Below are positions 41,155-63,298 of a stretch of 64,000 bases of DNA, one piece after another. The position numbers were made by a program, and so were the translations under genes. The DNA is from Pseudoflavitalea sp. G-6-1-2. Its GTDB lineage: Bacteria > Bacteroidota > Bacteroidia > Chitinophagales > Chitinophagaceae. The stretch is from positions 1,116,001 through 1,180,000 of the forward strand of contig NZ_JABBGB010000003.1 in the NCBI RefSeq assembly GCF_012927185.1. Reading direction: 5' to 3'. Below the pieces are notes generated by a model. It was not told the origin of the DNA. It searched no databases and was given only the letters and a program-made list of their open reading frames with translations. Position 1 is the stretch's first letter. Every line of letters begins with the position of its first letter.

Positions 41155-41164
41155 TGTTCCTGAT

Positions 41165-42035: not shown

Positions 42036-42620
42036 ATGCGAAACGCCGGACTTTCAGATATTGAGCTGTTGGATCTGATCAAGCAACACGATGCATCGGC
42101 ATTTCGTGTATTGTTTGAAAGGTATTGGGAACAACTGTATCTCTTCGCCTTAAAAAGACTGAAGAGCAAACAGGATGCTGAAGACGCCGTTCAGCACGTG
42201 TTCATGAGTATCTGGGACAAACGATCTGTCCGAAACATCCACTTCTCCCTTCAGCATTATCTCTACAAATCGGTTTCTTACGAATGTATTGCAGCGCTCA
42301 AAAGAATGCTCGATCGTCCTTCGGACATTGAAGCGGTCGACGAAAATATTCTTCCTCTCTTCAGTGATGTGCTCGAAAATATGAGCCTGCAGGAACTCAA
42401 TCAGCTCATCGAAACCGAGATCAGTCGACTGCCGCACCGCATGCAGCAGATCTATCGCCTCAGCAGGGAGCAGGATCTCAGCGTGCGCGAGATCGCCGTA
42501 TCACTGAATGTATCTGAACAAACAGTAAAGAATCAACTCACCACTGCCTTGCATCGTTTGCGCAAACCTGTTACGGATGCCATGCTGTTGCTGCTCGCCA
42601 ATGAGTTAATGATTCGGTAA
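42036..42620 (+). CDS. ECF RNA polymerase sigma-70 factor heading the fasciclin locus
   Basis: 194 residues of normal ECF length. Region 2 is FRVLFERYWEQLYLFALKRL...AEDAVQHVFMSIWDKR; region 4 is LPHRMQQIYRLSREQDLSVREIAVSLNVSEQTVKNQLTTAL. The ATG at 42036 fits family length. It is followed by a terminator-like hairpin and then by the cognate FecR gene at 42705. With FecR and the STN domain of the TonB receptor at 43787 it makes a complete surface-signalling chain controlling this locus. Confidence 0.93.
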   Translation: MRNAGLSDIELLDLIKQHDASAFRVLFERYWEQLYLFALKRLKSKQDAEDAVQHVFMSIWDKRSVRNIHFSLQHYLYKSVSYECIAALKRMLDRPSDIEAVDENILPLFSDVLENMSLQELNQLIETEISRLPHRMQQIYRLSREQDLSVREIAVSLNVSEQTVKNQLTTALHRLRKPVTDAMLLLLANELMIR

Positions 42621-42651
42621 CATAGACCACTAGTACCAAACTTCTTTTTAG

Positions 42652-42680
42652 GGCGCTTATAATAAAGCGCCTTTCTTTTT
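42652..42680 (+). terminator. Terminator/attenuator hairpin between sigma and anti-sigma genes
   Basis: GGCGCTT (42652-42658) and AAGCGCC (42665-42671) form a 7-bp stem with a 6-base loop, followed by TTTCTTTTTT. It lies in the 84-bp gap between the sigma stop (42620) and FecR ATG (42705). It would lower read-through into FecR and downstream genes unless relieved. Confidence 0.75.
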
Positions 42681-42704
42681 TACAGAAACAGACATTACGC
42701 AACA

Positions 42705-43685
42705 ATGAATAAGGAAGCACTGAAAAGCATTGCCGAAAAATACCTGAACGGCACTGCTTCAGAAAAAGAAATAAAAATGATGCAGGCATGGATGCTGCTT
42801 ACAGAACAGGAGGATGCTTCCCTCACTGATCAGGAACGCCTGTCTGCCAAAGAAAGGATCTGGTTGATGATCGATCCCGATGCGCAGGATTCTGCGGAAA
42901 CCACTGCCAAACCTATGTTCCGGAGGATCAGTAAAAGAATGATGCGCTATGCAGCTGCCGTATTGCTGCTCACAGGTCTCGGTTCTGTTGCCTGGATCTA
43001 TCGCTTTCCCATACTCGATATGGTAGACCCTATTGCACTGAAGAGTATGCAAAGTGGTCCGTATGAAATAAAAGAATGTTGGTTGCCGGATAGTACGCAT
43101 GTAACATTGGCGGCAGGCAGCAGCATCAGTTATCCCGAAAAATACCGCGGAGCCAGAAGATTTGCCACACTGCGTGGTAAAGCATTCTTCAATGTAGCGC
43201 GCGATGTTGCACATCCTTTTGAAGTGGAAAGCCATCACATGAAAATAAAAGTGCTGGGAACATCCTTCGAAGTAGATGATGCCGATGGCCGGGAACATGC
43301 ACTGGTAACCGTTGTAACCGGTAAAGTGCAGGTGAATGCAACCAGGCAGCAGCCTGCATTGCTCGGTCGTAATCAGCAATTGAAATTCAACAAAAAATCA
43401 GGCAGCATTGCCATCGATGATACAATCGACGCCGGTTCGGTAACCGGATGGACAACCAAATCTTTATCCTTCAATGAAACACCGCTTGCAGAAGTGCTGA
43501 AAGCCGTTGCAGTTGCTTATCAGCTGGATATTCAGCCTGGCCAGCAGGTGGTGAAATCATCAGCCACATTCAGTGGAAATTTTTCCAGATCGGAGTATTG
43601 GAAAGATGTGCTCGATATCATCTGCATGTCGTCGGATCTCTCCTGGTCTGTGAACAGATCAAACACAATTGTGATCAAAAAATAA
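42705..43685 (+). CDS. FecR family anti-sigma factor (DUF4974 C-terminus)
   Basis: 326 residues. The helical cytoplasmic part (KYLNGTASEKEIKMMQAWM) interacts with sigma, a TM helix lies at ~85-105 (RYAAAVLLLTGLGSVAWIY), and the periplasmic FecR domain contains WLPDSTHVTLAAGSSISYPEKY and LRGKAFFNVARD. The C-terminal DUF4974 region is SLSFNETPLAEVLKAVAVAYQLD. It pairs with the sigma gene upstream and with the STN domain of the receptor that starts 101 bp downstream. Confidence 0.93.
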   Translation: MNKEALKSIAEKYLNGTASEKEIKMMQAWMLLTEQEDASLTDQERLSAKERIWLMIDPDAQDSAETTAKPMFRRISKRMMRYAAAVLLLTGLGSVAWIYRFPILDMVDPIALKSMQSGPYEIKECWLPDSTHVTLAAGSSISYPEKYRGARRFATLRGKAFFNVARDVAHPFEVESHHMKIKVLGTSFEVDDADGREHALVTVVTGKVQVNATRQQPALLGRNQQLKFNKKSGSIAIDDTIDAGSVTGWTTKSLSFNETPLAEVLKAVAVAYQLDIQPGQQVVKSSATFSGNFSRSEYWKDVLDIICMSSDLSWSVNRSNTIVIKK

Positions 43686-43786
43686 CGCCGGCAAACTTAG
43701 TGTAGTCGCCAGGTTGCAGCAGCAGCCCGGCAGGCGGTCTCATTCTGCTAAAACAGGATACGGGATTGTTTTATCCAAAAAAGTAA

Positions 43787-46700
43787 ATGCAAATGCACAA
43801 AATTCTACCGTTCTGTTTCAGACGGGAACCAACCAGAACCCGGAACCTTCCCGGAAGATTATGGCTCAGTCTGGTGCTGGTATTGTTCAGCACTATCATG
43901 CAGGCACAACAACCTGCAAAAAAGATCAGCCTGGAGTTCAGCAATGAAGATGTTATCAGTTGCCTGAAGAAGATCGAATCTGCGTCAGGCATCAATATCT
44001 ACTATCAGCCCAGTGAACTGAAAACCGTTTCTAAAAAGTTCACCATCAGTTTCACCAACCAATCCGTTACTTCTGTACTGAATACTTTGTTCAGCAATAC
44101 CGGCTTCACCTGGCAGGAGCTGAATGGAAAGATCGTCATAAAAAAAAAGGCAGCAGAACCAGCCCCCGCGAAGGAGCCTGAAACTGTAAAGCCTGTAAAC
44201 CAGCAACCATTCAGGGTTTCGGGCCGTGTGAAAGATGAAAAGAATAAACCGATGTCTGGTGTTTCTGTAAATATCAAAGGAACGAAGTCTGGTACATTGA
44301 CCAATGCCGAAGGACAGTTCGATATCAGGGTTCCCGGTAAGAATCCCGTGCTGGTGTTCAGCTATACCGGATACGAAAAAACAGAAACAGTAGTGGAAGA
44401 CAGTGCTGCTATTACTGTTTCGCTTCTTCCCGGTAATGCAACACTCGGATCTGTGACCGTTTCTGCCAGAAGAAAACTGAACACAGAAGCATCACTGCTC
44501 ACAGAAAGAAAGAACGCGAGCATCATCTCCGATGGTATCTCTGCACAACAGATAGAGAAAACAGCGAGCATCACCACTACGCAGGCTTTGCAACGTGTGT
44601 CTGGTGTAACTGTAACGGATGATAAGTATGTGGCCATCCGTGGACTTGGCGACAGAAGTGTAATCGGACAGCTCAACGGTATTCGTCTTGCTTCCTCCGA
44701 TCCCGACAGAAGCGCTATTCCATTGGATCTGGTACCTGCATCGTTGCTGGATAATATCACCATTTACAAAAGCATCACGCCAGATAAACCTGCGGATGCA
44801 GCAGCGGGTATCGTGGATCTGAAAACAAAATCAATCCCTGATAAAGAAACATTCACCATCTCCGCGCAAACCGGAATGAACACACAGACCGGCAGCAAGG
44901 TGAACAGTTTTTACAATAGCGAAATGGGTTTCCTCGGAGGAAAAGTAAAAGATAAATCGCTGAGCAACGAGTTTCAGCAGCTCTCCAAACAGTATCCCGG
45001 AGGCCTGCGCGACATACAGCGAATGATTGCCGACAGCCGTAATGATCCATCATTGCTTGCAGAAGCCAATCGCATCAACCGCATCATGCATCAGTTCGAT
45101 CCTGTACTGACTACCCGATACAAAAATGCACCGGTGAATCAGAATTATTCCATCACGTATGGCAACAATTATTCTGTGTTCAAAAATCATCAGGTGGGAT
45201 TGATAGTAGGCGCAAACTATTACAACCGTACCAGTGATATACACGAGGGAACCCTTACCCAGTACAGTGTTTATCAGGGTGTGCTTACGGGGAACAATCA
45301 TGTGTTCAGCCCGCGCATCATCCCCAACTATATCACGCCGAATAATATCAACCTTGGAAAATACCTGAACTACAAAGAGAATACAGGAACACAAACCATC
45401 AACTATGGTTTCCTTGGTGGACTTACGTATCGCTTCTCGCCGCAGCATGAGATCAGTATGCAGTATCTCGGAAGCCGTGGCGCAGAATCGAGAGCTTCCA
45501 ATTTGTACGGAGCATACGAGTACACGGGTATTCCGGGTAAAATATCCAACACCATTTACTCGCTGAGGCAGGTGTACCGCACGCTGAATACTTTCAACCT
45601 GCAGGGCGAACATAAATTCCTGCAAAATGAATATTCTCCGAGACTCAGCTACAACCTCGCGAGTTCGGGCAGCAGTCAGGATGATCCTGATTATCGTTTC
45701 GTGAACCTCGCAGACTATACGCCCAATAATGGCGCAGCCATTCAGATGCCTTCCGATATTCCGAACTCAGTAGGTGGCATACAATACACGCGCAACTTGT
45801 ATTCGCTGGTATCTGGTTATGTGAATGGATATGGTCCGTACGGAATCATTCAGGCAGATCCTAACGGCCGGAGGTTCAGAAAACTGAAAGAAGAGAATTA
45901 CAACTACAAAGCTGATGTATCGCTTCCTTTCAAATTCCTTGGCAACAAACAGGAATTCAAAACAGGGGTGAACTACCTGCATCGCAAGAGAAATTTCACC
46001 GAGAACGTGTTGTACCTGCCGGGTTCAAATTACTCATCTGAAAAGAGTATGCCGTTGTACGAAGTAACCGGCAATCTCGATAAACTGATTGGATACGATC
46101 GTATCGGTATCCGTTCGCAATCGAGTTTCAACGGAGAAGGTGCTCCGAGAATGGGCGGCTTCCTCTACAATATTCAGAAATCACCGAACAACTACAAAGG
46201 ATATTATGAAACGCGCGCCTTCTACGGCATGCTCGATCTGAGATTGACGGAGAGCCTGCGACTCACTGGTGGTGCACGTTTTGAGATGACGGATATTCAG
46301 GCAGCAGTAGATACATCGAATGTATTTCTCGATGCCAGCATCACTACCATTGACGGTGGTGGCAACAAAGTGAACCTGGTGTATACCGAACCGAACTCCG
46401 TATACAAAACCAATTACGAACCTTACTATTCGGCTAACCTCACCTACACATTCAATAAGAACATGAACTTCAGGCTGGGCTACAACAATTCGCTGAGCCG
46501 CCCTGAACTGCGTGAACTTACAAACGTATTCGACTTCGATCCTTTCCAGTTTGCACTGGTAGTAGGAAATCCGAAGCTGAAAAACCAGCAAACAACCAGT
46601 TATGATTTCCGTTGGGAGTGGTTCCCACGTTCCGGTGAAGTGCTGTCTGCATCTGTGTTCTACAAGGAGATCGACAATCAGCTGACGAAGGTTTTCAAAA

Positions 46701-47302
46701 TTAATTCAACCGGCCTGGATGCAAAATTCCCTGAGTTTCCTGCCATCGAGTTTCAGAACGATCCCAACAAAGGACGTGTTTATGGTATCGAACTGGAAGC
46801 AGTGAAGAACCTGGGGACTTTGCTTCCTGCGCTGAAGTACTTCTCACTCGGCACCAATCTGTTGCTGGCACAGAGCGATATCAAAAAATCTCCTGAGCGA
46901 CTGGAATCATCGCGCGCTATCGACAGAAAAGCTCCATCGAACAGTCCATTGTTCGAGCAGGCGCCTTACAGCATCAATATCTTCCTCAACTATAACAACA
47001 AGAAACGCGGAACGGATCTCACTGCCACATTCAATATGGTAGGAGAGCGACTGATACAGGTTAATCTGGATGGTACGCCGGATCTGTATTCCAGACCAAA
47101 CCCCGTGCTCGACATCGTATTTACGCAGCAACTGCTGAAACGCTGGCAGCTGAAAGGCTACGCGAAAAATATTCTCGACAAGCCGGTTGAAGAAGTATAT
47201 GCCAACCCCGGAACAGGAGGCAAATTCTATGGTAAGAAATATGTGCGCCGCAGTTTCTATCGCGGTACAGAATTGATGATCGGACTTACCTACACGCTCT
47301 AA
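43787..47302 (+). CDS. TonB-dependent outer membrane receptor with STN domain (fasciclin locus)
   Basis: 1171 residues. The N-terminal signal/anchor is ~20-42 (LWLSLVLVLFSTIMQAQ). The STN domain is ~46-118 (VISCLKKIESASGINIYY, VTSVLNTLFSNTGFTW). A carboxypeptidase-regulatory-like domain follows at ~143-225 (FRVSGRVKDEKNKPMSGVSV), then the plug at ~235-350 with RGLGDRSVIGQLNGIRL and SITPDKPADAAAGIVDLKTK, and a barrel ending GTELMIGLTYTL. The 'RGLGDR...TPDKP...GIVDLKTK' plug marks a group distinct from SusC, and no SusD gene follows. The ligand is unknown. Its STN domain ties it to the sigma/FecR pair just upstream; the next gene starts 12 bp after it. Confidence 0.92.
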   Translation: MQMHKILPFCFRREPTRTRNLPGRLWLSLVLVLFSTIMQAQQPAKKISLEFSNEDVISCLKKIESASGINIYYQPSELKTVSKKFTISFTNQSVTSVLNTLFSNTGFTWQELNGKIVIKKKAAEPAPAKEPETVKPVNQQPFRVSGRVKDEKNKPMSGVSVNIKGTKSGTLTNAEGQFDIRVPGKNPVLVFSYTGYEKTETVVEDSAAITVSLLPGNATLGSVTVSARRKLNTEASLLTERKNASIISDGISAQQIEKTASITTTQALQRVSGVTVTDDKYVAIRGLGDRSVIGQLNGIRLASSDPDRSAIPLDLVPASLLDNITIYKSITPDKPADAAAGIVDLKTKSIPDKETFTISAQTGMNTQTGSKVNSFYNSEMGFLGGKVKDKSLSNEFQQLSKQYPGGLRDIQRMIADSRNDPSLLAEANRINRIMHQFDPVLTTRYKNAPVNQNYSITYGNNYSVFKNHQVGLIVGANYYNRTSDIHEGTLTQYSVYQGVLTGNNHVFSPRIIPNYITPNNINLGKYLNYKENTGTQTINYGFLGGLTYRFSPQHEISMQYLGSRGAESRASNLYGAYEYTGIPGKISNTIYSLRQVYRTLNTFNLQGEHKFLQNEYSPRLSYNLASSGSSQDDPDYRFVNLADYTPNNGAAIQMPSDIPNSVGGIQYTRNLYSLVSGYVNGYGPYGIIQADPNGRRFRKLKEENYNYKADVSLPFKFLGNKQEFKTGVNYLHRKRNFTENVLYLPGSNYSSEKSMPLYEVTGNLDKLIGYDRIGIRSQSSFNGEGAPRMGGFLYNIQKSPNNYKGYYETRAFYGMLDLRLTESLRLTGGARFEMTDIQAAVDTSNVFLDASITTIDGGGNKVNLVYTEPNSVYKTNYEPYYSANLTYTFNKNMNFRLGYNNSLSRPELRELTNVFDFDPFQFALVVGNPKLKNQQTTSYDFRWEWFPRSGEVLSASVFYKEIDNQLTKVFKINSTGLDAKFPEFPAIEFQNDPNKGRVYGIELEAVKNLGTLLPALKYFSLGTNLLLAQSDIKKSPERLESSRAIDRKAPSNSPLFEQAPYSINIFLNYNNKKRGTDLTATFNMVGERLIQVNLDGTPDLYSRPNPVLDIVFTQQLLKRWQLKGYAKNILDKPVEEVYANPGTGGKFYGKKYVRRSFYRGTELMIGLTYTL

Positions 47303-47314
47303 AAAGAAACACTG

Positions 47315-49033
47315 ATGAAAAAATCACTCATATATTTTTGCAGACTTGGGTTGGCAGTGATACTGCTGACCGGTTGCAAAAAGAAACTGGATTTTGAATA
47401 CGATAACCGTCTCAGCAAAGAACCTATCGCAGGTTCCATCACGCGGATAGTGAACATCACCGGTTCAGATCAGCTGAGGATCAACAATACAAAGCTTACG
47501 GCTTTTATTGCACCTGCTATCGACGGAAGTTACGGTGAGAAGGAAACCCGCGGCACCATTTACTTTCCGGAGAACGGAAGAATTGGAGTTGGCACTGCCT
47601 TTACTGTTCCGCAAATGTTTGTAGGAGCTGATGGACAGATAAATAACATTCAGTTCAGCTCATTGGGCAACAGGCAGGCGCTGCCACCATCGAGATCATT
47701 CGTTGCGAAGAACGATCCCAATAACGCTACAGATTATTACTACGTAAGATATCGTCCGAACAGAGAGAGCTATCTCGATTCACTTATTGCTGTGCCGAGA
47801 TCAATTTCTCCCTCTTCCAATCCGGCCAGTTTCAGAATCAGGCTGGTGAACCTCTCTTCAGATGCTGACCGGAATTCACTTCCGGGTATGTTCCGAAAAG
47901 GAGCGATGACACTGGCTTTCGCTGATGGAACACCGCTCGCCGGAATGGCAGCAGTAGAGCCCGGAAAATATTCTGAGTACATCGATGTGCCTTATGGTAC
48001 TTATCAGTTTAAAGTATTAGACAGTGATGGAAAAGAAGTGCCCTCAAGCAGTTCTTATGTGATGAATCCGCAGACAGGTACACTGATGGACCTGTACGGA
48101 GAACCCGGTATCGGTGGTAAAATGGATACCTGGCTCACTTACGCACCCATCAGATCTTACCAACCTGGAGGTGTGTACACTATCGTAGTGAGCATGAATA
48201 CCGATTGCTCGATCCCCACCGGAAACCCCAACGGTGAAACGTACAACGCCGAAGGAAATACATTCCGCATTATTGCTGATATAGCTGATCCTGTGAATAT
48301 GACATATGCCAGAATGCAGGCTGTTGCTGCAATACCGGGCACTACGGTGCAATGGAAAACAGGTAATGGCAATCTTGGTAAGCCTATCGGTTTTGCTGAG
48401 GCAACTGCTTATCAATCTTTCATCACCGGAGTACAGTCGGTGAAAGCATACGACAACAATGGAAAGTTGCTGGCAGAAAAAGAATTGAAACTGGAACCCG
48501 GCGACAATATCACTGCCTGGCTGTTTACAGCTGCCGACGGCAAACCTGCTATCAGTTTTGTTGCCAATAACCTCAGCGGAAAATTCTTCAATGGTAAAGC
48601 AGGAGAGGACGGAAGCTACAGCATGTACAAAGATGGATTCCCTACCTGGATGAGGTTGATGAATTTCTGCCCTCAGTTGAACGAAGTGAGTTTCAGAGCA
48701 GACAATGGTCAGCAATTTATTGTTGGTGCGGGTTCGAAAGCCGCTTCTGCCACGGATCATATTCTGCTGGGAAAACCAGTGGTGTCCGATGCTTACGTGC
48801 AGTTTATGCTGAATCATCCGGCAAGGGTACTGGCCTACGCTTCTGCTCCGGGCATCCTTCCCGGAAACTTTATGACGCATGTGGCACCACTCGAAAACCG
48901 CCGTTTTATCGCAAGACCTGATCTGTACAAAACAGCCAGCCTCCCTAATAAAGAGCCGGGCGTTTATACGGTAGCGATAGTAGGGGAGACAGTGGCAGCA
49001 GCCCGCATGATCATTGTTAAACACAATCAATAA
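47315..49033 (+). CDS. Large surface lipoprotein with DUF4397-like repeats
   Basis: 572 residues with lipobox Cys21 (LLTGCKKKLDFEYD). A DUF4397-like segment is recognisable at ~175-255 (FRIRLVNLSSDADRNSLPG, then PGKYSEYIDVPYGTYQFKVLDSDG). A second, weaker copy lies at ~445-540 (WMRLMNFCPQLNEVSFRADNG, then ARVLAYASAP). DUF4397 is an extracellular beta-sandwich domain of unknown ligand. The Lys-rich residues after Cys resemble the surface export signal of Bacteroidota lipoproteins. It sits directly after the TonB receptor, in the place SusD occupies in a Sus operon, so it may be the receptor's surface partner (inference). A 407-residue frame on the opposite strand is a shadow. Confidence 0.8.
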   Translation: MKKSLIYFCRLGLAVILLTGCKKKLDFEYDNRLSKEPIAGSITRIVNITGSDQLRINNTKLTAFIAPAIDGSYGEKETRGTIYFPENGRIGVGTAFTVPQMFVGADGQINNIQFSSLGNRQALPPSRSFVAKNDPNNATDYYYVRYRPNRESYLDSLIAVPRSISPSSNPASFRIRLVNLSSDADRNSLPGMFRKGAMTLAFADGTPLAGMAAVEPGKYSEYIDVPYGTYQFKVLDSDGKEVPSSSSYVMNPQTGTLMDLYGEPGIGGKMDTWLTYAPIRSYQPGGVYTIVVSMNTDCSIPTGNPNGETYNAEGNTFRIIADIADPVNMTYARMQAVAAIPGTTVQWKTGNGNLGKPIGFAEATAYQSFITGVQSVKAYDNNGKLLAEKELKLEPGDNITAWLFTAADGKPAISFVANNLSGKFFNGKAGEDGSYSMYKDGFPTWMRLMNFCPQLNEVSFRADNGQQFIVGAGSKAASATDHILLGKPVVSDAYVQFMLNHPARVLAYASAPGILPGNFMTHVAPLENRRFIARPDLYKTASLPNKEPGVYTVAIVGETVAAARMIIVKHNQ

Positions 49034-49043
49034 ACAGTCAGCA

Positions 49044-50219
49044 ATGAAATATAAACTTAGTTTCTGTACCGCCTTCCTGATGCTGCTGCTGTTGGCAGGA
49101 TGCCGCAAAACAGATTTCGCAGCAGTGGAAAGTCCCGCATATATCCGGGTGTTCAACAGCCTTGATTTCAACACCACTGTAGATAATAAAGACGCACCCC
49201 AGCCATTTCTGGTGATGCTGATAGACCCCGTGCTCGATAAAGACGGTATTCCTGAAAGCGCCGCCATTACCGGCGACTTCCTCGATAAACGCGATGCCTG
49301 GGCCAGACCTTACCCCGATGCAGTGAACACTACACTGTGGCAGAAAGAATATCCCGGCACACTCAAAGTGCTGGCTGCTCCCATCCTCAACGGATACGAT
49401 CTCAGCAGCTGGGCGCAGGTTCCATCGGGAAAACACCGCATCATATTTCAGACAAGACCTTACAACCAAACACCGTTTTTCAGTCTGGAGAAAAAACTCC
49501 GCGGCGTATCCATCATCGATACCACTATCGAAATGGGCGTAAGAGAAGTATATACCATGCAGGTGTTGCAGAAAAATTATCAGTCGCCCAAAACCATCCT
49601 GTATGTGCGCAACGAAAATTTTGTAAAGCAGCCGCTCAGCGATTCGATGGTGTATGTTAATTTCTATAACCTCAGCTCCGAAGGATTTTTTGATGTGGCA
49701 AAAACAGAGAAAGATCCGAACGATGTTCCCAATAAACTGATGGGAGACAGAATGGGCGTGTATTTCAGCCTTACCAGCAGTAAGAGCAACAGCCCTAAAC
49801 CTGTAGCCGGTTTCACCAATGTACCGATGGGAGCCATTATCAGATCGCATAAACCGGAGGCGGCGCCTTATTACAGTTTTCCATTATTTGCCGATACCAG
49901 CGCTTCAAAAATATTCACCGGCAATATGGGACAATATTTCGCATTCTGTGCGCCGGGTTATACACCAGATATCATTCCTCCCTTCGAAACACCGGTAGGC
50001 GTATTTACAGGAGTGGCATTGGGCGATTATGGAGATGATGCCGGAAGCCAGTTCTGGCCTTACAAGATCAAAGGAGATCTGCGTACCGGCATGGTGGTGA
50101 GCATCCATTCCGGAAAGGACAATCCTAAATCTTTCTCAACCATCAATACAGTTGAATACATCAACAAGAAATTCTATCTCACTACCATTCAGCGCAAATT
50201 TGAACCGCCTACCTACTAA
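49044..50219 (+). CDS. Surface lipoprotein of unknown family (fasciclin locus)
   Basis: The ATG at 49044, ten bases after the previous stop, gives 391 residues with lipobox Cys20 (LLLLAGCRKTDFAAVE). Early IRVFNSLDFNTTVDNKD and later YVNFYNLSSEGFFDVAKTEKD segments recall the RVFNxS strands of DUF4397-type proteins, so it may be a divergent relative of its upstream neighbour, but I cannot assign a family. A YTMQVLQKNYQSPKTILYVRNENF stretch and a long C-terminal part without repeats follow. It is fixed in the operon between the DUF4397-like and first FAS1 genes. Confidence 0.75.
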   Translation: MKYKLSFCTAFLMLLLLAGCRKTDFAAVESPAYIRVFNSLDFNTTVDNKDAPQPFLVMLIDPVLDKDGIPESAAITGDFLDKRDAWARPYPDAVNTTLWQKEYPGTLKVLAAPILNGYDLSSWAQVPSGKHRIIFQTRPYNQTPFFSLEKKLRGVSIIDTTIEMGVREVYTMQVLQKNYQSPKTILYVRNENFVKQPLSDSMVYVNFYNLSSEGFFDVAKTEKDPNDVPNKLMGDRMGVYFSLTSSKSNSPKPVAGFTNVPMGAIIRSHKPEAAPYYSFPLFADTSASKIFTGNMGQYFAFCAPGYTPDIIPPFETPVGVFTGVALGDYGDDAGSQFWPYKIKGDLRTGMVVSIHSGKDNPKSFSTINTVEYINKKFYLTTIQRKFEPPTY

Positions 50220-50229
50220 CAAATCAATC

Positions 50230-51318
50230 ATGAAAAAAATATCCAGCATATCAATTTGCGCACTGCTGATGCTGATGATGGCAGCAGGTTGCAAAAAAGA
50301 AGATCTCACTGCGCCGGCAGACAGAACAACGCTGCCGCGGAATATGGGAGAGTTTATCGAAAACAATTATGACCTGAGCATTCTGAAAGCTGCCCTGATT
50401 AAAACCGGAATGATGAACGACCTGAAACAGCCGGGCGCTTTCACCATGTTTGCTCCGGATAACAAAGCTTTCAATCAGATCGGTATCACGGAAGAATCAA
50501 TCGCTGCAATGAATACCGATAGTCTGAAGTTCATACTCCAGTATCACCTGATTGCAGACAGGTATTATGTTTCAAACTTTCCGGTGCAGTTGGACAATGT
50601 GTATAAAACGCAGAACGGAAAAGAGCTGTATGTAAGCATTTCAAAGCAACAATCGCAGGGAGCCAACAATAAAGATACCTATGTGAACGGAGTACCTGTA
50701 ATGCCCGAAGCCAAAAGAAATATCCCTTTATCGAATGGCGTGCTGCATATACTTTTTCGTCCATTGAATATTTCAACCGGAACGGTGCAGGATTACATCG
50801 CATCCAGATCGGAGCTGTCGCTTTTTGCAGCCATCATGAAAAAATTCAATCATTGGGATGATCTGAAAAGCAAACCGCTGCTGACCGTGTACGCTCCGGT
50901 GAATGATGCATTCTTAGCTTATGGATTAACAGCCGACAGCATTGCGAAGATCAATCCTGCTACATTCAATCCGCTGGTGTTCGATGTATATCTGCTGCAA
51001 ATGAAGTCTGCCAGAGTGTTTGCCAGTGATGCCGCTACGCTTACGGAGAACGGCACTCAGCCTATCAGCAATGGCATTATGATACAGCCAGATTATGCAA
51101 TGAATCCGGGCTATACGTTTTCTACCTACAATTTCACGGAAATCGCCACACTCTGGATCTACAAAAAGGCCATAAACGGAATCTGGGACGTAAACCCCCA
51201 CGGCAACGCTACTGTGTATTACGCAGGAGGATTGAACTACTCCAATAAACTCAACAGCAATGGCGTGGTGCATACGATCGATCAACTGATTTTCGATCCA
51301 GCCAGGTTCCGCAAATAA
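50230..51318 (+). CDS. Fasciclin (FAS1) domain lipoprotein 1
   Basis: The ATG at 50230 gives 362 residues with lipobox Cys21 (MAAGCKKEDLTAP). Two FAS1 domains are visible. The first is ~40-182, with FTMFAPDNKAFNQIGI and the closing NGVLHILFRPL. The second is ~188-358, with LTVYAPVNDAFLAYGL and NGVVHTIDQLIF. FAS1 domains are ancient cell-adhesion modules; in bacteria some bind glycans or take part in surface attachment. The CKKED start fits export to the outer surface. It is the first of three consecutive FAS1 lipoproteins, 10 bp after the previous gene. Confidence 0.92.
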   Translation: MKKISSISICALLMLMMAAGCKKEDLTAPADRTTLPRNMGEFIENNYDLSILKAALIKTGMMNDLKQPGAFTMFAPDNKAFNQIGITEESIAAMNTDSLKFILQYHLIADRYYVSNFPVQLDNVYKTQNGKELYVSISKQQSQGANNKDTYVNGVPVMPEAKRNIPLSNGVLHILFRPLNISTGTVQDYIASRSELSLFAAIMKKFNHWDDLKSKPLLTVYAPVNDAFLAYGLTADSIAKINPATFNPLVFDVYLLQMKSARVFASDAATLTENGTQPISNGIMIQPDYAMNPGYTFSTYNFTEIATLWIYKKAINGIWDVNPHGNATVYYAGGLNYSNKLNSNGVVHTIDQLIFDPARFRK

Positions 51319-51330
51319 AAAAACTTACAC

Positions 51331-52524
51331 ATGATCTATACAATACCACATAACAAATTCTTTACAGCGCTGCTGGTGCTGGCGGTGGCCTTCGTTGGTT
51401 GCCGTAAAAAAGATGTAATGCCTGAGCCGGTAGGAGAGCCGGTGCCATTTACCGGCGCCACCAAAAAATGGCAGCAACTGATTGAGGAAGGCAACAACTT
51501 TTCGCTCTTTCAGGCAGCCCTCAAAAGGTCGTCGCTGAACACCATTATCGAAAAGAGCGGCTCGGCATTTTTAACCTTCTTTCTTCCGGTGAACAAAGCC
51601 ATGGAAGAAGCCGGCTGGACTTTAGACAAGATCAATGCTGCAGATCCGAAGCATCTGGACAGCATGCTTACCTATTGCATCGTTGCCGGACAAACACTTC
51701 CCGGCGCATTCACAAGCCCCGGAAGTAAAACACTGGCCACGCTTTCGAAACGCGATGATGTGCCCAATTTCTCTTCTTCACAGTTGTATACCGATTTTCT
51801 TTTTGTGGGTTCGCACAATGACAGTGTTTGTGTAAACGGACAAACACAATCCAAATGGAGCGAAGCTCAGCTGGCCACCAACGGCGCGATATATCCGGTT
51901 AGCAGAATGGTGCCGCGTCCCACAAAGACACTTATTCAATATATCGCTGAAGATCCCAGACTGGAATTTTACAGTGAAGCAATCCGCATCAACGATAGTT
52001 TGTATACATCCGAATGGCGCGATATTCAGGTAGTGATGGCGCTCACCGGTGGCCCTTCGGTAGCACAGCATACACTTTTTGCGCCTTCAAACGAAGCATT
52101 CAAAAAAGCAGGCTTTCAGTCTGTAGACGATATCAGAAATTATTCTCTGGCCACATGGCCGATCCCCTGGCCTGAAACTGGGGAAGATGGATACTTTCAT
52201 GTCCCTGTTACTTCCATGGATACATTGTTGTTCCCTCATGGTACTGGTCTGTATCAGATATTGGGAGGAAAAGACCTTTCTGGTCCGGTTTTCTTCACCA
52301 ACGATCTCATCGATAACGGAGCTTCATTAACGGGTATGCCACTCACTACTTCCAGTCCGGGTTATCTGCCTCCTTTATTTATTCCGCTTGCATTCAGTAG
52401 TCCGGATAAAGAGCCGCTGATAAAACTGCTGAAATCGAACAGGCAACCGGTGCCGATCGCAGATAAGAATATCCGAACGCTGAATGGCGTGATCCACGTG
52501 GTAGACAACCTCTTTATGCCTTAG
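51331..52524 (+). CDS. Fasciclin (FAS1) domain lipoprotein 2
   Basis: 397 residues, lipobox Cys24 (AFVGCRKKDVMPE). The first FAS1 domain is ~45-195 (FSLFQAALKRSSLNTII, then FLTFFLPVNKAMEEAGW). The second is ~200-395 (HTLFAPSNEAFKKAGF, then LNGVIHVVDNLFMP at the very C-terminus). The domain pair is more divergent than in its neighbours: the first copy ends in NGAIYPVSRMVP instead of the usual NGxxHxID. It lies 12 bp after FAS1 gene 1. A role as one surface component of a three-part FAS1 set is likely. Confidence 0.9.
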   Translation: MIYTIPHNKFFTALLVLAVAFVGCRKKDVMPEPVGEPVPFTGATKKWQQLIEEGNNFSLFQAALKRSSLNTIIEKSGSAFLTFFLPVNKAMEEAGWTLDKINAADPKHLDSMLTYCIVAGQTLPGAFTSPGSKTLATLSKRDDVPNFSSSQLYTDFLFVGSHNDSVCVNGQTQSKWSEAQLATNGAIYPVSRMVPRPTKTLIQYIAEDPRLEFYSEAIRINDSLYTSEWRDIQVVMALTGGPSVAQHTLFAPSNEAFKKAGFQSVDDIRNYSLATWPIPWPETGEDGYFHVPVTSMDTLLFPHGTGLYQILGGKDLSGPVFFTNDLIDNGASLTGMPLTTSSPGYLPPLFIPLAFSSPDKEPLIKLLKSNRQPVPIADKNIRTLNGVIHVVDNLFMP

Positions 52525-52541
52525 GCTAAAAACACTGAACA

Positions 52542-53525
52542 ATGAAACAATTGCTATACACCTGCATGGCGGCGCTTGCACTCGCAGCCTGCAGCAAGAA
52601 CGATAAAACATTGCCGGAGAAGGAGAGTGATCTCTCCAACCGTCTCACTTTTATCATCGACGACAATAAATTCAATTTCTCTTACTTCAACACGGCGCTT
52701 GGCCGTACAGCTTACAAAAAGAAGCTGGGAGAGGAAGGGCCTTTCACTGTGCTGGTCCCCGATAACAACGCTTTCATCCGAAATGGATATAGTACTGAGA
52801 ATTCAGTGCTCACCGAAGATGCAGCCATACTCAACAACATCGTTCCTTATCATATTATCGATGGTATCTGGGACTTTACTAAACTGCCTTTTGCATTCAA
52901 TCAGGAGATCAGCTCCATCACAGGTGCAAGCATGTACATAACGCGATGGGTAAAGAATCAGGATACTGTTCTTACCATCAACGGATCGCGCGTGATCAGC
53001 AGAAACCTGAAAGCCAGCAATGGCACCATACAGGCCATCGACCAGCTGCTGCAGCCGATGGTGCACAAGCGTCTCTCAGATCTGGCAGCAGCTGATACTA
53101 CACTCACCTGGTTTAATGTGGCGTTGCAACATGCCGATATGAAATCGTTGCTGGAGACCAACAAAGCTTACACTGTATTCGCACCATCGAACAAGGCTTT
53201 CCGCGAAGCGGGATATCCCACTATCGAATCTGTATTGAATGCAGATGCAACGGTGATAAAGAATCTCCTTCGCTACCAGCTATTCGAAGGCCGCCGATTC
53301 GTTTACGATTACATACTCACTACCGGCGCTGCTGAAGTGTCTGATCAGGCGATGCTCAATGGCAATCCCATTCAGGTATCGCTGACCAAAACAGGCATCA
53401 ACTATACAGGCATTAAAGTAAAAGGACTGAGCAATGCCACATACTCAAACATTCTAAAAGGCAATCTGCTGGCAGGCAATGGCGTGATGCATATCATCGA
53501 CCAGGTGCTGAAAGAAAACCAGTAA
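52542..53525 (+). CDS. Fasciclin (FAS1) domain lipoprotein 3
   Basis: 327 residues, lipobox Cys17 (LALAACSKNDKTLPE). The first FAS1 domain is ~33-170 (FTVLVPDNNAFIRNGY, NGTIQAIDQLLQP). The second is ~175-326 (YTVFAPSNKAFREAGYPT, GNGVMHIIDQVLKENQ). Each keeps the FAS1 box 1 (T-V-x-x-P-x-N-x-A-F) and box 2 (NG-x-x-H/Q-x-I-D). It is 17 bp after FAS1 gene 2 and 11 bp before the Oar-like receptor. Confidence 0.92.
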   Translation: MKQLLYTCMAALALAACSKNDKTLPEKESDLSNRLTFIIDDNKFNFSYFNTALGRTAYKKKLGEEGPFTVLVPDNNAFIRNGYSTENSVLTEDAAILNNIVPYHIIDGIWDFTKLPFAFNQEISSITGASMYITRWVKNQDTVLTINGSRVISRNLKASNGTIQAIDQLLQPMVHKRLSDLAAADTTLTWFNVALQHADMKSLLETNKAYTVFAPSNKAFREAGYPTIESVLNADATVIKNLLRYQLFEGRRFVYDYILTTGAAEVSDQAMLNGNPIQVSLTKTGINYTGIKVKGLSNATYSNILKGNLLAGNGVMHIIDQVLKENQ

Positions 53526-53536
53526 AAATATTCCCC

Positions 53537-56500
53537 ATGAAACAGATCCTGCGTATTTGCTTTCTGCTTTGTATGGTACTGATTGGCACACATGGCTGGA
53601 GCCAGGAAACCAACGGCGCTATCACCGGAAAGATAACAGACGATAAAAAAGAACCATTGGCTGGTGCATCTGTCACTGCCATTCACGAACCATCCGGAAC
53701 CAGCTATGGCATTGCCACAGGCGCCGATGGAAGATATTATCTCCCCGGTCTCCGTATCGGTGGACCTTACACCCTGAAAATTACAATGGCTGGAAGAGCA
53801 CCGCAGGCGATCAGTTCCATAACCGTTCGTCTCGGTGAGCCATTGCAATTGAATGTAACAATCACTGCTTCGGAAAAAGAACTGGCTTCTGTTGAAGTGA
53901 AAGCCCGCAAAGGAGCTGCCAGAGCCAATTCTACAGGTGCAGGACTCAATATCGGAAGAACGCAGCTGAATTCGATGCCCACCATCAGCCGCAGCATTCA
54001 GGACATCACCAAACTTGTTCCGCAAGGCTCTAAGGACAATTCATTTGCAGGAACCAATTTCCGTTACAACAATATTACCATCGACGGAGCTATCAATAAC
54101 GATGCGATCGGGTTCAGTCCTTCGAGCGGAGGCATCACCGGCAGCTCAGGCATGCCCGGATCGAGCACGCGCTCCAATGCCATTTCGCTCGATGCCATCG
54201 AAGACATGCAGGTATATCTTGCACCCTACGATGTTAAGATCGGCAACTTCACCGGAGGCAGCATCAACGCTGTAACACGCAGCGGTACCAACAAAGTAAC
54301 CGGCTCCGTGTATGGATTTGGCAGAAATGCCACCATCACCGGAAAAGATAAAACCGGATCAACCGGTAAAATGAAATCCGACTTCCACGATTATCAGGCA
54401 GGTTTCAGAGTAGGTTTCCCCATCATCAAAAACAAACTCTTTTTCTTCACCAACGAAGAGATCACCAGTCGCCGCGATCCGGTGCAACTGCTGGCCGGAA
54501 GCCCTGAAACTGCGGGTATTCTCAGTGCCGAAGATGCAGACAAGATCCGAACGGAAACCGTGAAGCGTTATGGCAATCGTTTCGATCCCGGTACTGCAGG
54601 TGATTACAATGCCTGGTCGCGTTCACAGAAATTCTTCAACCGCATCGACTGGAATATCAATGCCAGACATCAGCTGAGTCTTCGCAACAACACCATTTTC
54701 TCCAAAGCGATGAACATGGATCGTGATCAGCAGGATTTCCGGTTCAGCAGCATGGCTTACGAACAAAGCAATAACCAGCATTCAACTGTGCTCGAACTGA
54801 AGAGCCGTTTCAATGGAGGATGGAGCAACAGCTTCATCGCAGGATACAGCGCCGTGCATGATAAACGCTCACCCACCGCAGACCCTGCATTGCCGCAGGT
54901 GCAGGTGGCAGGCCGCACTCCGGGCACTACCATTTATTTTGGTACCGACCGCGAAGCGAGCATCTTCAATATGAAACAACGCACTATCGAGATCACCGAT
55001 AACGTAACGCTGAGAAAAGGAAAACATACTATCCTCATCGGAACGCACAACGAGTTGTATCGCATCAACTACGGATTTGTAAACAGCTGGAATGGCCGTG
55101 TAGACTATCTCAGCGTGGAAGACTATCTCGCCAACAAACCATACCGCGTTCGCGGCAGCTACAATTTCAACAACAATAACCGCGATTATATTCTTGCCAA
55201 TCCCGAAGCGGTGTTCAATGTGAACATGCATAGCCTGTATGCGCAGGACGAAATTCAGGTGACAGACAAACTGAAGCTGATCCCCGGTCTTCGTGCAGAC
55301 TACACCTGGCTTCCTCAAAAGCCAGCCATGAGCGAGCAGGTGCAGAACGCCATTACCGATAACGCATTCGGAACAACCTACACGTACACACCGCTCAACA
55401 GAATCAACAACAACTACCTCAACAAAGTGCAGTTGTCGCCACGACTTGGATTCAGGTATGATGTGAAAGGAGATCAGAGCATCATCATCCGCGGTGGAAC
55501 AGGATTGTTCACCGGCCGCATTCCATTCGCATGGCTGGCATATGCTTACTACAACAACGGCATCAACTACGGATCATTCGATCAGAAAGCAGACACGAAA
55601 GTATTTGTTCCCGGTTCTGATCCATTACTCGCTGGGCCCAACGGCATAGCGGGATTCATTGAACAGAACGGTGCTGTGATCAACAACAGAAATTCAGGAA
55701 AAACACAGGTGGATGTAATCGATAACGGATTTGTAATGCCGCAGGTTTGGCGCAGCAGCGTAGCGCTCGATTACAGTACTGAAAGCGGATACAAATTCGG
55801 ATTCGAAGCCCTCTTTACCAAAACGCTGAAGGATGTGATGTTTCAACAGATCAATATCAAAGACGATCCAAAATATTATCCTTACGATAAAAACAAAGAG
55901 CAACCCATCTACAGTGGAACAGTTGATCCCCGTTTCTCCAACGCTTATCTGCTGAGCAATACAAAGCAGGGTTATCGTTACAGTCTCACTGCAACTGTGA
56001 GCCGCACATATGCGTTTGGATTGAATGCCTCGCTGGCCTACACCTATGGTGGATCGAAAGATATCTCCAATGGTATCCGCAACTCAATGGAAAGCAACTG
56101 GCAGCTGAATCAGGCGCTGAGCCCCAACAATCCCGGACTGGCATGGTCTAACTTCGATCTTCGCCATCGTATTGTTGCCAATGCCACTTACAGAAAAGCC
56201 TGGAACGATCATTGGACAAGCTCCCTCACTGTATTCGCTACGGCTCAGTCCGGAAGTCCGTTTACCTATGGTGTTGTCAACAACAGCGTACAGGGATTGC
56301 CACAGCAAACAAGTTTGCTTTTTATTCCGCAACGTGAAGAAGCAGTGAAATTCTTTCAGGATTATACTGGTCAGAATGGGCATTCAATCACAGCAGCCGC
56401 GCAGGCTGCAGCATTCAATGCCTATATCGATGGCGACAAATACCTGCGCACACGCAGAGGGCAATTCACAGAACGCAATGCAGGCCGTACACCATGGAAT

Positions 56501-56797
56501 GTGCAGGCAGACCTTCACTTTGTACAGGAGTACAAACTCACAAACGGACATGCCATCAGTTTCACCATCGACATCATCAACTTCACCAACCTCATCAACA
56601 GCAGCTGGGGAAGGATCTATTTTTCACCGAATACATTCAACTCAACAGCGAGTGTAGGCTTAACACCTGCATTCCCTGCGAAGCAGAATCCTGAAGGTTA
56701 TCCGGTGTACACATTCGATAATCCGGGCAAACCATATTCTGTGGATTTCTTCAATTCGAGAGCACAGATGCAGATGGGCATCAGGTATTCATTCTAG
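53537..56797 (+). CDS. Oar-like TonB-dependent outer membrane receptor
   Basis: 1086 residues with a signal peptide (MVLIGTHGWSQ). A carboxypeptidase-regulatory-like domain spans ~24-110 (GAITGKITDDKKEPLAGASV, then GLRIGGPYTLKITMAG). The plug has ISRSIQDITKLVPQGSKD and RYNNITIDGAINNDAIG, then YDVKIGNFTGGSINAVTRSGTNK. The barrel is long and ends MQMGIRYSF. The Oar group (named after the Myxococcus protein) includes receptors linked to protein export and surface changes as well as import. This one has no STN domain and no SusD. It is the second TonB receptor of the same operon and follows three FAS1 lipoproteins. Confidence 0.92.
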   Translation: MKQILRICFLLCMVLIGTHGWSQETNGAITGKITDDKKEPLAGASVTAIHEPSGTSYGIATGADGRYYLPGLRIGGPYTLKITMAGRAPQAISSITVRLGEPLQLNVTITASEKELASVEVKARKGAARANSTGAGLNIGRTQLNSMPTISRSIQDITKLVPQGSKDNSFAGTNFRYNNITIDGAINNDAIGFSPSSGGITGSSGMPGSSTRSNAISLDAIEDMQVYLAPYDVKIGNFTGGSINAVTRSGTNKVTGSVYGFGRNATITGKDKTGSTGKMKSDFHDYQAGFRVGFPIIKNKLFFFTNEEITSRRDPVQLLAGSPETAGILSAEDADKIRTETVKRYGNRFDPGTAGDYNAWSRSQKFFNRIDWNINARHQLSLRNNTIFSKAMNMDRDQQDFRFSSMAYEQSNNQHSTVLELKSRFNGGWSNSFIAGYSAVHDKRSPTADPALPQVQVAGRTPGTTIYFGTDREASIFNMKQRTIEITDNVTLRKGKHTILIGTHNELYRINYGFVNSWNGRVDYLSVEDYLANKPYRVRGSYNFNNNNRDYILANPEAVFNVNMHSLYAQDEIQVTDKLKLIPGLRADYTWLPQKPAMSEQVQNAITDNAFGTTYTYTPLNRINNNYLNKVQLSPRLGFRYDVKGDQSIIIRGGTGLFTGRIPFAWLAYAYYNNGINYGSFDQKADTKVFVPGSDPLLAGPNGIAGFIEQNGAVINNRNSGKTQVDVIDNGFVMPQVWRSSVALDYSTESGYKFGFEALFTKTLKDVMFQQINIKDDPKYYPYDKNKEQPIYSGTVDPRFSNAYLLSNTKQGYRYSLTATVSRTYAFGLNASLAYTYGGSKDISNGIRNSMESNWQLNQALSPNNPGLAWSNFDLRHRIVANATYRKAWNDHWTSSLTVFATAQSGSPFTYGVVNNSVQGLPQQTSLLFIPQREEAVKFFQDYTGQNGHSITAAAQAAAFNAYIDGDKYLRTRRGQFTERNAGRTPWNVQADLHFVQEYKLTNGHAISFTIDIINFTNLINSSWGRIYFSPNTFNSTASVGLTPAFPAKQNPEGYPVYTFDNPGKPYSVDFFNSRAQMQMGIRYSF

Positions 56798-56815
56798 TAC
56801 AATCAATACAAGACA

Positions 56816-58978
56816 ATGAAAAGATATTTTGGACTGCTGGCGTTGATGCTGATACTGGCCTTCGCCTGTAAAAAAGACAATCACGAAAATGCAAAACCTG
56901 CATTTGCGGTGAAAGCATTCTGGCCTAACGGCGGAAATGCGGGAACCATTGTAACCATCCGTGGGCAAGGGTTTGGTGCCAAAGCATCCGATAACGAAGT
57001 AAGCTTCAACGGAACAATTGCCACGGTAGTGAGCAGAAACGATTCTACGCTGATGGTGCAGGCTCCTGCAAACGGAAGCACCGGAACACTCTCCGTAAAA
57101 GTAGCCGATAAGAAAATCGATGCAGGTACCTACACGTATCAGCAGTTGACCGTAAAAAATGTATATCCGCTCAACGGACCTGCAGGAACCAATATCCGCA
57201 TCAGCGGAGAAGGTTTCGGCAATACAGGAGCACCTGCAAAAGTGATGGTGAATGGCAAAGAAGCCATCATTACCGATCTCTCAGATACCTTGCTGATTGC
57301 AGCAGTACCTGAGGCTGCTGGCAGCGGAAGCATCAAAGTATTTGTGAATGGCAAAGAAGTGACCGGCCCCGGATTCAGCTTCCAGCATATCTCCGGCATC
57401 AAACCATTGAAAGGTGGTGCAGGAACTGAAGTAACCATTCTCGGTGAAGGGTTCAGCACAGATGCTGCAAACAACCTGATAGCCTTCAACGGCAAACCCG
57501 CGGAAGTGCTGAGCGCCAGCAATGGTAAGCTGGTTGTGAAAGCGCCTGCGGAAGTAGCCACAGGTTCAATCTCGGTGACCATCAACGGACAAAAAACATC
57601 CGGCAATGTATTCACCGTTGTTCCTAAACCAGTGCTGAAAACAGTCACTCCACTGAGCGCTCCTGCAGGAAGAGATATAGAATTTACCGGTGAATATTTC
57701 AGTGAATTTGCCGATGAGATCAATATCACATTCAATGGCAAACCCGCTACCATCGTTGTTTCAGCAGAAAAGAAAATGACGGTGAAAGTACCAGCGGGTG
57801 CAGGTGCAGGCAATATACTCGTAACGGTGAACGGACAACAAACCGGCGGCCCGCTTTTCAAAGAACAATCTCTCGGCGTTGTGAAACTCACGCCCGACAA
57901 TGGATTGACAGGAACCGACGTAACTATCGCTGGCATGGGATTTGGCTCGCTGACTGCGGATAATCAGGTATTCTTCAATGGCGTTGCTGCAACTGTAGTG
58001 AGCGCCACTGAATCTGAACTGAAAGTAAAAGCACCTGCTGCATTCACTACTGGCGCCATCACTGTGAAAGCCGGTGGGCTCGATGCAACTGGTCCGGTTT
58101 TCAGAAGGGCAGGTGTGATCACCATCGCGGGTAATCCATCTGCGAATGAATTCAGCTACCCTGAAGGAATTGCAGTGGATGCTTCAGGCAATGTGTTCGT
58201 ATCCGATGGTAACCTCATCAAAAAAGTAACACCAAACGGAACCGTTTCTGTATTCGCAGGAAGCACTACCTCCGGTTTTGCAGATGATATGGGGCCCAAT
58301 GCCCGCTTCAATTTTATTACTACGCTCGCAATGGGTGAAAACGGCATACTGTATGCGCTGGATGTTTTAAACAGGAGAGTAAGACAGATCACTTCAGACG
58401 GAAATGTTAAAACATTCGCAATACTCGGCTTTACTCCGACAGGCATGGGGGTAGACAAGAACAACGTTGTCTATGTAGGATCGCAGTACAGTTCGATCTA
58501 CAGATTGGATGCATTGGGAAATGCCACCAAAGTAAGCAACACCTATGAATCCGCTACCGGATTGATTGCGATTGATAATGCAGGACAGATCTTTTACAAT
58601 GGCGATTACAGCTACAATGATGTGTTCCATATATTGCCTGATGGCCGCAAAGAAGTATTTGCAGGAAGTACCAGTTACGGATCTGTAAACGGACCATACA
58701 GATCGGCCATGTTCGGCACATTGAACGGAACCGTTATCGACAGAAACAGCGGCATCATGCATGTTGTTGACGGCAATGGAATAAGAGTGCTGGCAGACGG
58801 AATGGTGTCCACACTCACCGGCTGGAGCGGCGGCTTATCACCAGTATCCGGATACAAAGATGGTACGCTGAACGAAGCGAAATTTTGGGATATCAAATCG
58901 CTTTGTATAGACAAGGAAGGAAATATCTATGTGATCGAAAGGAACAATAAGGCTGTTCGTAAGATCATAATGAAATAA
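56816..58978 (+). CDS. Surface lipoprotein with five tandem IPT/TIG domains and an NHL propeller
   Basis: 720 residues, lipobox Cys18 (LAFACKKDNHEN). Five IPT/TIG Ig-like domains of ~80 residues each cover ~32-430. All carry a G-x-x-G-T-x-V/I-x-I-x-G-x-G/F-F opening (GGNAGTIVTIRGQGFG, GPAGTNIRISGEGFG and so on) and an x-V-x-A-P-A middle. The fourth is degenerate (APAGRDIEFTGEYFS). From ~432 to the end NHL repeats form a propeller (SYPEGIAVDASGNVFVSDGN, LCIDKEGNIYVIERNNKAVRKI). This architecture is typical of extended binding proteins at the cell surface. It is the last gene before a strong terminator. Confidence 0.92.
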   Translation: MKRYFGLLALMLILAFACKKDNHENAKPAFAVKAFWPNGGNAGTIVTIRGQGFGAKASDNEVSFNGTIATVVSRNDSTLMVQAPANGSTGTLSVKVADKKIDAGTYTYQQLTVKNVYPLNGPAGTNIRISGEGFGNTGAPAKVMVNGKEAIITDLSDTLLIAAVPEAAGSGSIKVFVNGKEVTGPGFSFQHISGIKPLKGGAGTEVTILGEGFSTDAANNLIAFNGKPAEVLSASNGKLVVKAPAEVATGSISVTINGQKTSGNVFTVVPKPVLKTVTPLSAPAGRDIEFTGEYFSEFADEINITFNGKPATIVVSAEKKMTVKVPAGAGAGNILVTVNGQQTGGPLFKEQSLGVVKLTPDNGLTGTDVTIAGMGFGSLTADNQVFFNGVAATVVSATESELKVKAPAAFTTGAITVKAGGLDATGPVFRRAGVITIAGNPSANEFSYPEGIAVDASGNVFVSDGNLIKKVTPNGTVSVFAGSTTSGFADDMGPNARFNFITTLAMGENGILYALDVLNRRVRQITSDGNVKTFAILGFTPTGMGVDKNNVVYVGSQYSSIYRLDALGNATKVSNTYESATGLIAIDNAGQIFYNGDYSYNDVFHILPDGRKEVFAGSTSYGSVNGPYRSAMFGTLNGTVIDRNSGIMHVVDGNGIRVLADGMVSTLTGWSGGLSPVSGYKDGTLNEAKFWDIKSLCIDKEGNIYVIERNNKAVRKIIMK

Positions 58979-59003
58979 ACGATGTAGTTATATTCGGACT
59001 GGC

Positions 59004-59065
59004 AACATGGCAAGATCAGCAAATCACAACAGTCAAACCCGCTGATCTTCCATGTTTGCTTTTTT
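59004..59065. terminator. Long bidirectional terminator between the fasciclin locus and the YeeE genes
   Basis: AACATGG-c-AAGATCAGC (59004-59020) pairs with GCTGATCTT-CCATGTT (59041-59056): 16 bp with one bulged C and a 20-base loop. Six T follow on the plus strand, A residues and a T-poor tail on the other. It lies between convergent stop codons at 58978 and 59071. Confidence 0.85.
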
Positions 59066-63297: not shown

Positions 63298-63298
63298 T

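Follow-up and report, generated by a model that had tools for sequence, protein, structure and literature searches.

A conserved operon of a TonB-dependent receptor and three fasciclin lipoproteins in Pseudoflavitalea and related Bacteroidota

The 64,000-nucleotide stretch of the Pseudoflavitalea sp. G-6-1-2 genome analysed here (the window) contains an operon of ten open reading frames (ORFs) encoding an extracytoplasmic function (ECF) sigma factor, a FecR regulator, a TonB-dependent receptor, a DUF4397 lipoprotein, an orphan lipoprotein that we call P5, three fasciclin lipoproteins (FAS1a, FAS1b and FAS1c), an Oar-like barrel and an IPT/NHL lipoprotein. On balance, we consider that this operon probably encodes a ligand-inducible, TonB-dependent outer-membrane machine for capture and import, with a surface layer of several lipoproteins that may form one complex with the receptor. 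DUF4397 and P5 would be surface-exposed, obligate partners of the receptor in a lid or delivery role, and the three FAS1 lipoproteins, together with the TIG/propeller lipoprotein, would form a capture layer further out. A second channel, usually co-encoded and serving import or export, would be provided by the Oar-like barrel. Cell-surface signalling of the FecA-FecR-FecI type uses an ECF sigma factor, FecR and a receptor STN domain; here, ligand entry would be sensed by STN and relayed through FecR to the sigma factor, so that the operon would raise its own expression.

This locus is more than a chance assembly of genes, as two further copies occur in the same genome and the gene order is kept across 77 distinct modules. 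Receptor, DUF4397 and P5 follow one another in 75 of them; the exceptions are a decayed module (L124) and one with DUF4397 split over two ORFs (L131). P5 is followed by FAS1a, FAS1b and FAS1c in 70/77 modules, the Oar-like barrel is present in 62 and the IPT/NHL gene in 42 (L139 being included in all three counts), and a fourth FAS1 gene was found in 14. FecR lies upstream in 71 modules, including L010, where it is past the end of the fetched sequence. Sigma and FecR occur together in at least 55 modules, a lower bound because the upstream search went no further than four genes and some genes are masked by the ORF filter. Indeed, this filter conceals genes beneath longer antisense ORFs, as happened to FAS1a of L139 and to sigma of L009. 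Some absences are due to contig or fetch ends (L063, L079, L126). The original prediction had proposed a search for FAS1 triplets next to TonB receptors with DUF4397 in other genomes, and the modules, found through P5, show such neighbourhoods. The opposite outcome, an order conserved in no relative, is contradicted by the same 77 modules.

Within the genome of the window, 15 of the 17 fasciclin-domain matches are grouped at three places, namely the operon described above and two other loci. These copies (contigs 1 and 2) repeat the gene order from sigma and FecR through receptor, DUF4397, P5 and the FAS1 triplet to the Oar-like barrel; the IPT/NHL gene is also present on contig 1, and an extra fourth FAS1 gene precedes the barrel on contig 2. 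Compared with the window, their receptors are 59 and 50% identical, their Oar-like barrels 64 and 55%, and their lipoproteins 26-40%. In the receptor tree (fast tree method), each of the three receptors belongs to a different clade, as would be expected for receptors of different ligands. The remaining two fasciclin genes encode single FAS1 lipoproteins adjoining SusD (L011, 9389-10108; L012, 9617-10348).

Modules were found in Chitinophagaceae, Sphingobacteriaceae and close kin. The P5 profile matched 2/395 genomes of a phylum sample, 14/195 of the family and 5/6 of the genus; one of the 14 family matches (G468, L056) was discarded as a weak false match. With a larger P5 profile, matches were obtained in 3/395 genomes of the class, 25/251 in the family of G885 and 40/79 in the genus of G558. 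One scan of genome contigs yielded 24 named loci, with Chitinophaga, Sphingobacterium and Pedobacter among the hosts, and the genomes searched held at most four P5 genes each. From the larger-profile matches 39 regions were taken, plus one from the genus scan, half being chosen for low scores or several copies, and duplicates were removed (L057, L058, L059, L078, L128, L133, L141). The module set is P5-positive by construction, from which the presence of P5 in all 77 follows. A wider P5 profile gave one weak match outside this range, over 42 residues (E 3.6e-4), in the distant small genome G041 (contig 9, L149).

The most divergent modules (L108, L109 and L120) contain no FAS1 gene at all, yet keep the receptor, DUF4397 and P5. 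DUF4397 and P5 are better candidates than FAS1 for the obligate partners of the receptor. L120 also carries an Oar-like barrel and a TIG/Kelch lipoprotein, a counterpart of the TIG/NHL lipoprotein. FAS1 may have been either gained or lost; the root of the receptor tree was placed on L108 and L109 by choice, so that the FAS1-less modules are not claimed to be ancestral. In L055 and L115, FAS1b is missing. No Oar-like barrel was found in 15/77 modules, comprising the three at sequence ends and 12 others. Among the latter, in L070 (16984-20349), L071, L121 (16198-19566) and L127 (16449-19802), it is replaced by another protein of 1118-1123 amino acids encoded after the IPT/NHL gene, which contains a TonB plug in L070 and L121.

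The original prediction described a dedicated surface assembly in which FAS1 lipoproteins replace SusD as ligand-binding lids. The assembly itself gains support from the sigma/FecR linkage, the conserved order and the lipoboxes with export-like starts. The substitution of SusD is weakened, because some modules lack FAS1 and because, at two SusC/SusD loci of this genome, FAS1 stands next to SusD and not in its place. P5, a gene that the original prediction left unnamed, had no match in Pfam, NCBIfam or PHROGs, and its profile found no convincing relative of solved structure in PDB (best E 1.1); the DUF4397 protein profile gave zero PDB matches at E<=10. A common fold family for DUF4397 and P5 was rejected, as the profile comparison covered only 56 N-terminal columns with a probability of 23.5.

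The FAS1 proteins were sorted by position using a quick tree method. FAS1a forms a single clade (39 rows, support 99), and FAS1b and FAS1c also form clades except for L055, whose second gene groups with FAS1c and whose third groups with the fourth type (support 84-91 for the latter). From these position-specific clades, the triplet is read as three separate subunits whose order has been maintained, and not as the product of recent tandem duplication. Across the 32 modules with a complete set of seven core genes, the median identity between pairs was.58 for the receptor,.64 for the Oar-like barrel,.35 for DUF4397,.43 for P5,.32/.27/.40 for FAS1a/b/c,.24 for FecR and.26 for sigma. Lipoprotein identity correlated with that of the receptor at r.82-.91, against.67-.78 with the Oar-like barrel; the values were.91 for receptor and barrel,.66 for FecR and receptor, and.56 for sigma and receptor, all being inflated by shared history and given with significance uncomputed.

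All three elements of FecIR-type signalling, ECF sigma, FecR and receptor STN, are encoded together. The window receptor has plug and barrel above the Pfam cut-offs and an STN domain just below (27.3 bits, cut-off 28.4), and STN of the home copy L009 scored 33.7 bits. A hidden Markov model built without L073, L076 and L077 detected STN in 68 of 77 receptor ORFs, a set that differs from the 77 modules and counts one receptor twice. The nine misses are L073, L076, L077, two G928 receptors (three ORFs), L116, L134 and L112. L116 and L134 are the main pieces of split ORFs and were not judged, and in L112 visual inspection shows an STN-like stretch; the others represent five distinct receptors, none with an adjacent FecR. 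Two of the FecR-less modules, L076 and L123, are preceded by another operon, whose first genes encode sigma, FecR, a SusC-type receptor and SusD; STN of that receptor scored 38.0 and 28.4 bits with a purpose-built model and was below the Pfam cut-off. In L076 (upstream part L169) and G928 (L124, L173), the genes preceding the module are sigma, FecR, SusC-type receptor, SusD, a zinc metallopeptidase and two DUF4302 lipoproteins. This position behind another sigma/FecR/STN operon fits the idea that STN-FecR-sigma signalling is a detachable part of the module. The G928 cluster (contig 15; L122, L123, L124, L173) comprises three FAS1 modules, one of them decayed, near the SusC/SusD/metallopeptidase operon and heme-uptake genes.

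Surface exposure of the lipoproteins is suggested by their N-termini. A lipobox was recognised in 40/40 DUF4397, 37/40 P5, 37/39, 38/39 and 37/39 FAS1 (by position) and 30/30 IPT/NHL proteins, some cysteines being mis-picked by the scan. Lysine stood at +3 in 39 DUF4397, 35 P5, 13, 30 and 26 FAS1 and 25 IPT/NHL proteins, and 30, 31, 29, 36, 29 and 28 of them, respectively, had an acidic residue between +3 and +6. In the available text of a study on Capnocytophaga canimorsus, the surface-export signal is given as C-X-K-(D/E)2-X (PMC5080379). The starts seen here are mostly C-x-K-acidic and resemble this signal. In 75/77 modules, the receptor is encoded together with DUF4397 and P5, lipoproteins of putative surface type.

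As to the ligand, an iron chelate or heme is our leading guess, a tentative one that relies on a few neighbourhoods, as the flanks are mixed. A XusA/XusB-like (DUF4374) pair lies 6 and 15 bp upstream of the module in L073 and L077, and its DUF4374 proteins are related to XusB, whose structure is solved. The FAS1-less L108 is followed by PepSY_TM and DUF4198, and in the L073 and L077 genomes other DUF4374 genes are likewise followed by genes for DUF4198-like proteins. Beside the decayed L124 are genes for heme oxygenase, FecCD, an ABC ATPase, a binding protein and a TonB-dependent receptor, and FeoB is convergent to L110. FeoB_N had two members in the flank scan, of which one was identified (L110); L113 and L046, the initial candidates, proved to be MacB-like permeases. 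A carotenoid-biosynthesis-type protein (PF04240) is encoded between P5 and PepSY_TM in L108 (11301-11936).

Several observations weigh against the import machine proposed here or against iron as its ligand. The export-like lipoprotein starts were scored without a negative control, that is, without a set of periplasmic lipoproteins for comparison. All five FecR-less receptors belong to one clade (fast tree), so that the joint loss of STN and FecR counts as one event, not several. No promoter motif common to the modules was found, the commonest dyad, tried as a shared promoter, being the start-codon region. Few metal-type ligands are conserved (His: none in P5, one in DUF4397, two in FAS1a, one in FAS1c), and these lipoproteins share no conserved Cys beyond the lipobox. 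Among the commonest 25 of 123 families in the flank scan (129 of 138 flanking ORFs), the top family accounted for at most 7 of the 129. The iron hints are dispersed: the XusAB pair belongs to one lineage, L108 has no FAS1, L124 is decayed and FeoB lies on the other strand. DUF4374 was found neither in the genome of the window nor in G928. In the accessible portion of a Bacteroides thetaiotaomicron study, a DUF4302 locus is listed as downregulated within the iron stimulon, and xus as upregulated (PMC10434189). A link between the DUF4302/metallopeptidase operons and the transferrin-iron system of Capnocytophaga was dropped, as these B. thetaiotaomicron data point the opposite way. Finally, a glycan is hinted at by L146, a module from the genus of the window, where a gene of GH127 arabinofuranosidase type precedes sigma on its own strand at a distance of 83 bp.

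This last neighbour would suit a glycan-uptake locus without enzymes of its own, in which a polysaccharide or glycopeptide is bound by FAS1, TIG/propeller and DUF4397 proteins, and enzymes encoded elsewhere release the fragments that the receptor imports. We regard this as rather unlikely, while recognising that Chitinophaga, Sphingobacterium and Pedobacter, all hosts of the module, are known for glycan use. Two SusC/SusD loci of this genome carry FAS1 lipoproteins, one beside an alpha-L-fucosidase gene; L076 and L123 follow SusD and a zinc metallopeptidase, with a DHDPS-family gene downstream of L076; and the TIG/Kelch lipoprotein of L120 scores on a model of N-acetylneuraminate epimerase. 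However, as originally predicted, neither an enzyme family nor a SusD family was matched by the ten operon proteins in the Pfam scan. The receptor is far below the cut-off of TIGR04056/SusC (74.5 of 368.25), which with TIGR01782 (239.3 of 310) is its nearest NCBIfam model, neither reaching its cut-off, and no glycoside hydrolase appears among the commonest 25 flanking families, GH127 being outside those 25.

Adhesion or binding is a widespread annotation for FAS1 and TIG folds, and FAS1c has its best PDB matches in TGFBIp and periostin. An adhesion apparatus, with FAS1, TIG and NHL proteins attaching cells and the barrels as anchors or exporters, is nevertheless improbable, because a TonB receptor that has a plug and STN and is accompanied by FecR and sigma is equipment for import and sensing; our analysis gave no positive support for adhesion, and a review of FAS1, in the part available, calls the bacterial adhesion label context-dependent and possibly misleading (PMC6032426). 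Handling of peptides or proteins, or an export route in which the Oar-like barrel passes proteins and FAS1 proteins are cargo receptors, has equally little to recommend it. A zinc metallohydrolase lipoprotein is encoded upstream in two modules (TIGR04549, 267 bits, L123; PF15890, L076), and Oar of Myxococcus is linked to protease export, but metallopeptidase contexts are limited to L076 and the G928 cluster, and the barrel is unfound in the modules noted above.

The inducible import machine that we favour resembles SusC/SusD loci in its TonB barrel with a CarboxypepD_reg-like domain, co-encoded lipoproteins and sigma/FecR control with STN. It differs by having six lipoproteins and a second, Oar-like barrel, no SusD adjacent to the receptor, and no operon enzyme, and the receptor does not pass the SusC/RagA model. 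Like XusAB and BtuBG, it would be a lipoprotein-assisted TonB transporter outside the SusCD type, and the role proposed for DUF4397 and P5 is that of SusD, XusB and BtuG. In the accessible text on XusAB, a xenosiderophore system, XusB is a DUF4374 beta-propeller lid on XusA (PMC13142918). The single lid there contrasts with DUF4397, P5 and three FAS1 proteins here. FecA-FecR-FecI signalling is matched by ECF sigma, FecR with FecR_C and receptor STN, with the difference that one clade here lost FecR and STN. Fasciclin proteins with PDB matches (TGFBIp, periostin, MPT70, astaxanthin-binding AstaP) share the FAS1 domain PF02469, whereas here three separately conserved lipoprotein subfamilies are co-encoded in a TonB operon.

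The original prediction knew of no described system of this composition, and we found no description of such a system among the papers listed in searches of the open-licence PMC literature, subscription papers being outside this coverage. If the favoured reading is right, the modules would be a new family of multi-lipoprotein TonB systems in Chitinophagaceae and Sphingobacteriaceae, giving a concrete bacterial role to fasciclin, DUF4397 and the orphan P5 family, and the diverged paralogues would be a ready set for studying ligand specificity of receptor-lipoprotein sets. It is doubtful whether one may go on to a separate class of TonB surface machine, defined by two barrels, an obligate DUF4397-P5 pair, a three-subunit FAS1 crown and diverged paralogous versions with different ligand specificity, and dedicated to iron chelates or heme in Bacteroidota of soils and plants.

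The layout of the operon is given in Table 1. The ORF list, translations and Pfam bore out the ten plus-strand genes at 42036-58978 and their domains as first described. With ATG starts at 49044 and 50230, the gaps from the receptor onward are 12, 10, 10, 12, 17, 11 and 18 bp, in agreement with the 10-18 bp reported. Six of the products are lipoproteins, three carrying fasciclin domains, all above the PF02469 cut-off of 22. For the PF25183 barrel we keep the name Oar-like, a label from the original prediction. The strong terminator predicted after the operon was confirmed by folding, the hairpin spanning about 59001-59060 with six T behind it. It was not listed by a simple terminator scan, whose loop limit was 8; the scan gave 19 terminator-like sites against 17.6 expected, a total near chance. 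The claim that one sigma/FecR pair is shared by the operon holds in that both genes are present, but the sigma gene may be partly uncoupled from the rest because of the terminator-like site that follows it.

Table 1. Features of the operon and its flanking signals, in window positions.
Feature	Positions	Strand	Evidence
ECF sigma factor	42036..42620	+	PF08281, PF04545, PF04542 above cut-off
Terminator-like hairpin between sigma and FecR	42650..42673	+	9 pairs, T-rich tail; pattern match only
FecR anti-sigma regulator	42705..43685	+	PF04773, PF16344 above cut-off
TonB-dependent receptor: N-terminal STN, CarboxypepD_reg-like, plug, barrel	43787..47302	+	Pfam
DUF4397 lipoprotein	47315..49033	+	PF14344 39.5 bits (cut-off 30.6); lipobox
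Orphan lipoprotein P5	49044..50219	+	ATG 49044; mechanical ORF start TTG 49014
FAS1a lipoprotein	50230..51318	+	PF02469 85.8 bits; ATG 50230; mechanical ORF start TTG 50152
FAS1b lipoprotein	51331..52524	+	PF02469 63.0 bits
FAS1c lipoprotein, two fasciclin domains	52542..53525	+	PF02469 130.4 bits, 2 stretches
Oar-like outer-membrane barrel with CarboxypepD_reg domain	53537..56797	+	PF25183 159.9 bits
Lipoprotein with five IPT/TIG domains and NHL repeats	56816..58978	+	PF01833 (5 stretches), PF25021, PF01436
Terminator: long stem, 20-base loop, six T	59001..59065	+	-26.4 kcal/mol, z -3.28

Divergent neighbours of the operon (40399-41767) encode a leucine-rich-repeat protein and a secreted-looking protein of 200 amino acids, with no family assigned. 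Past the operon, the minus strand at 61053-63781 carries sigma-like and FecR-like genes, recognised by eye, and a gene for a 422-amino-acid protein without Pfam match. Elsewhere in the window, also on the minus strand (24978-27740), is encoded a 920-amino-acid beta-helix protein with a type IX secretion C-terminal sorting domain.

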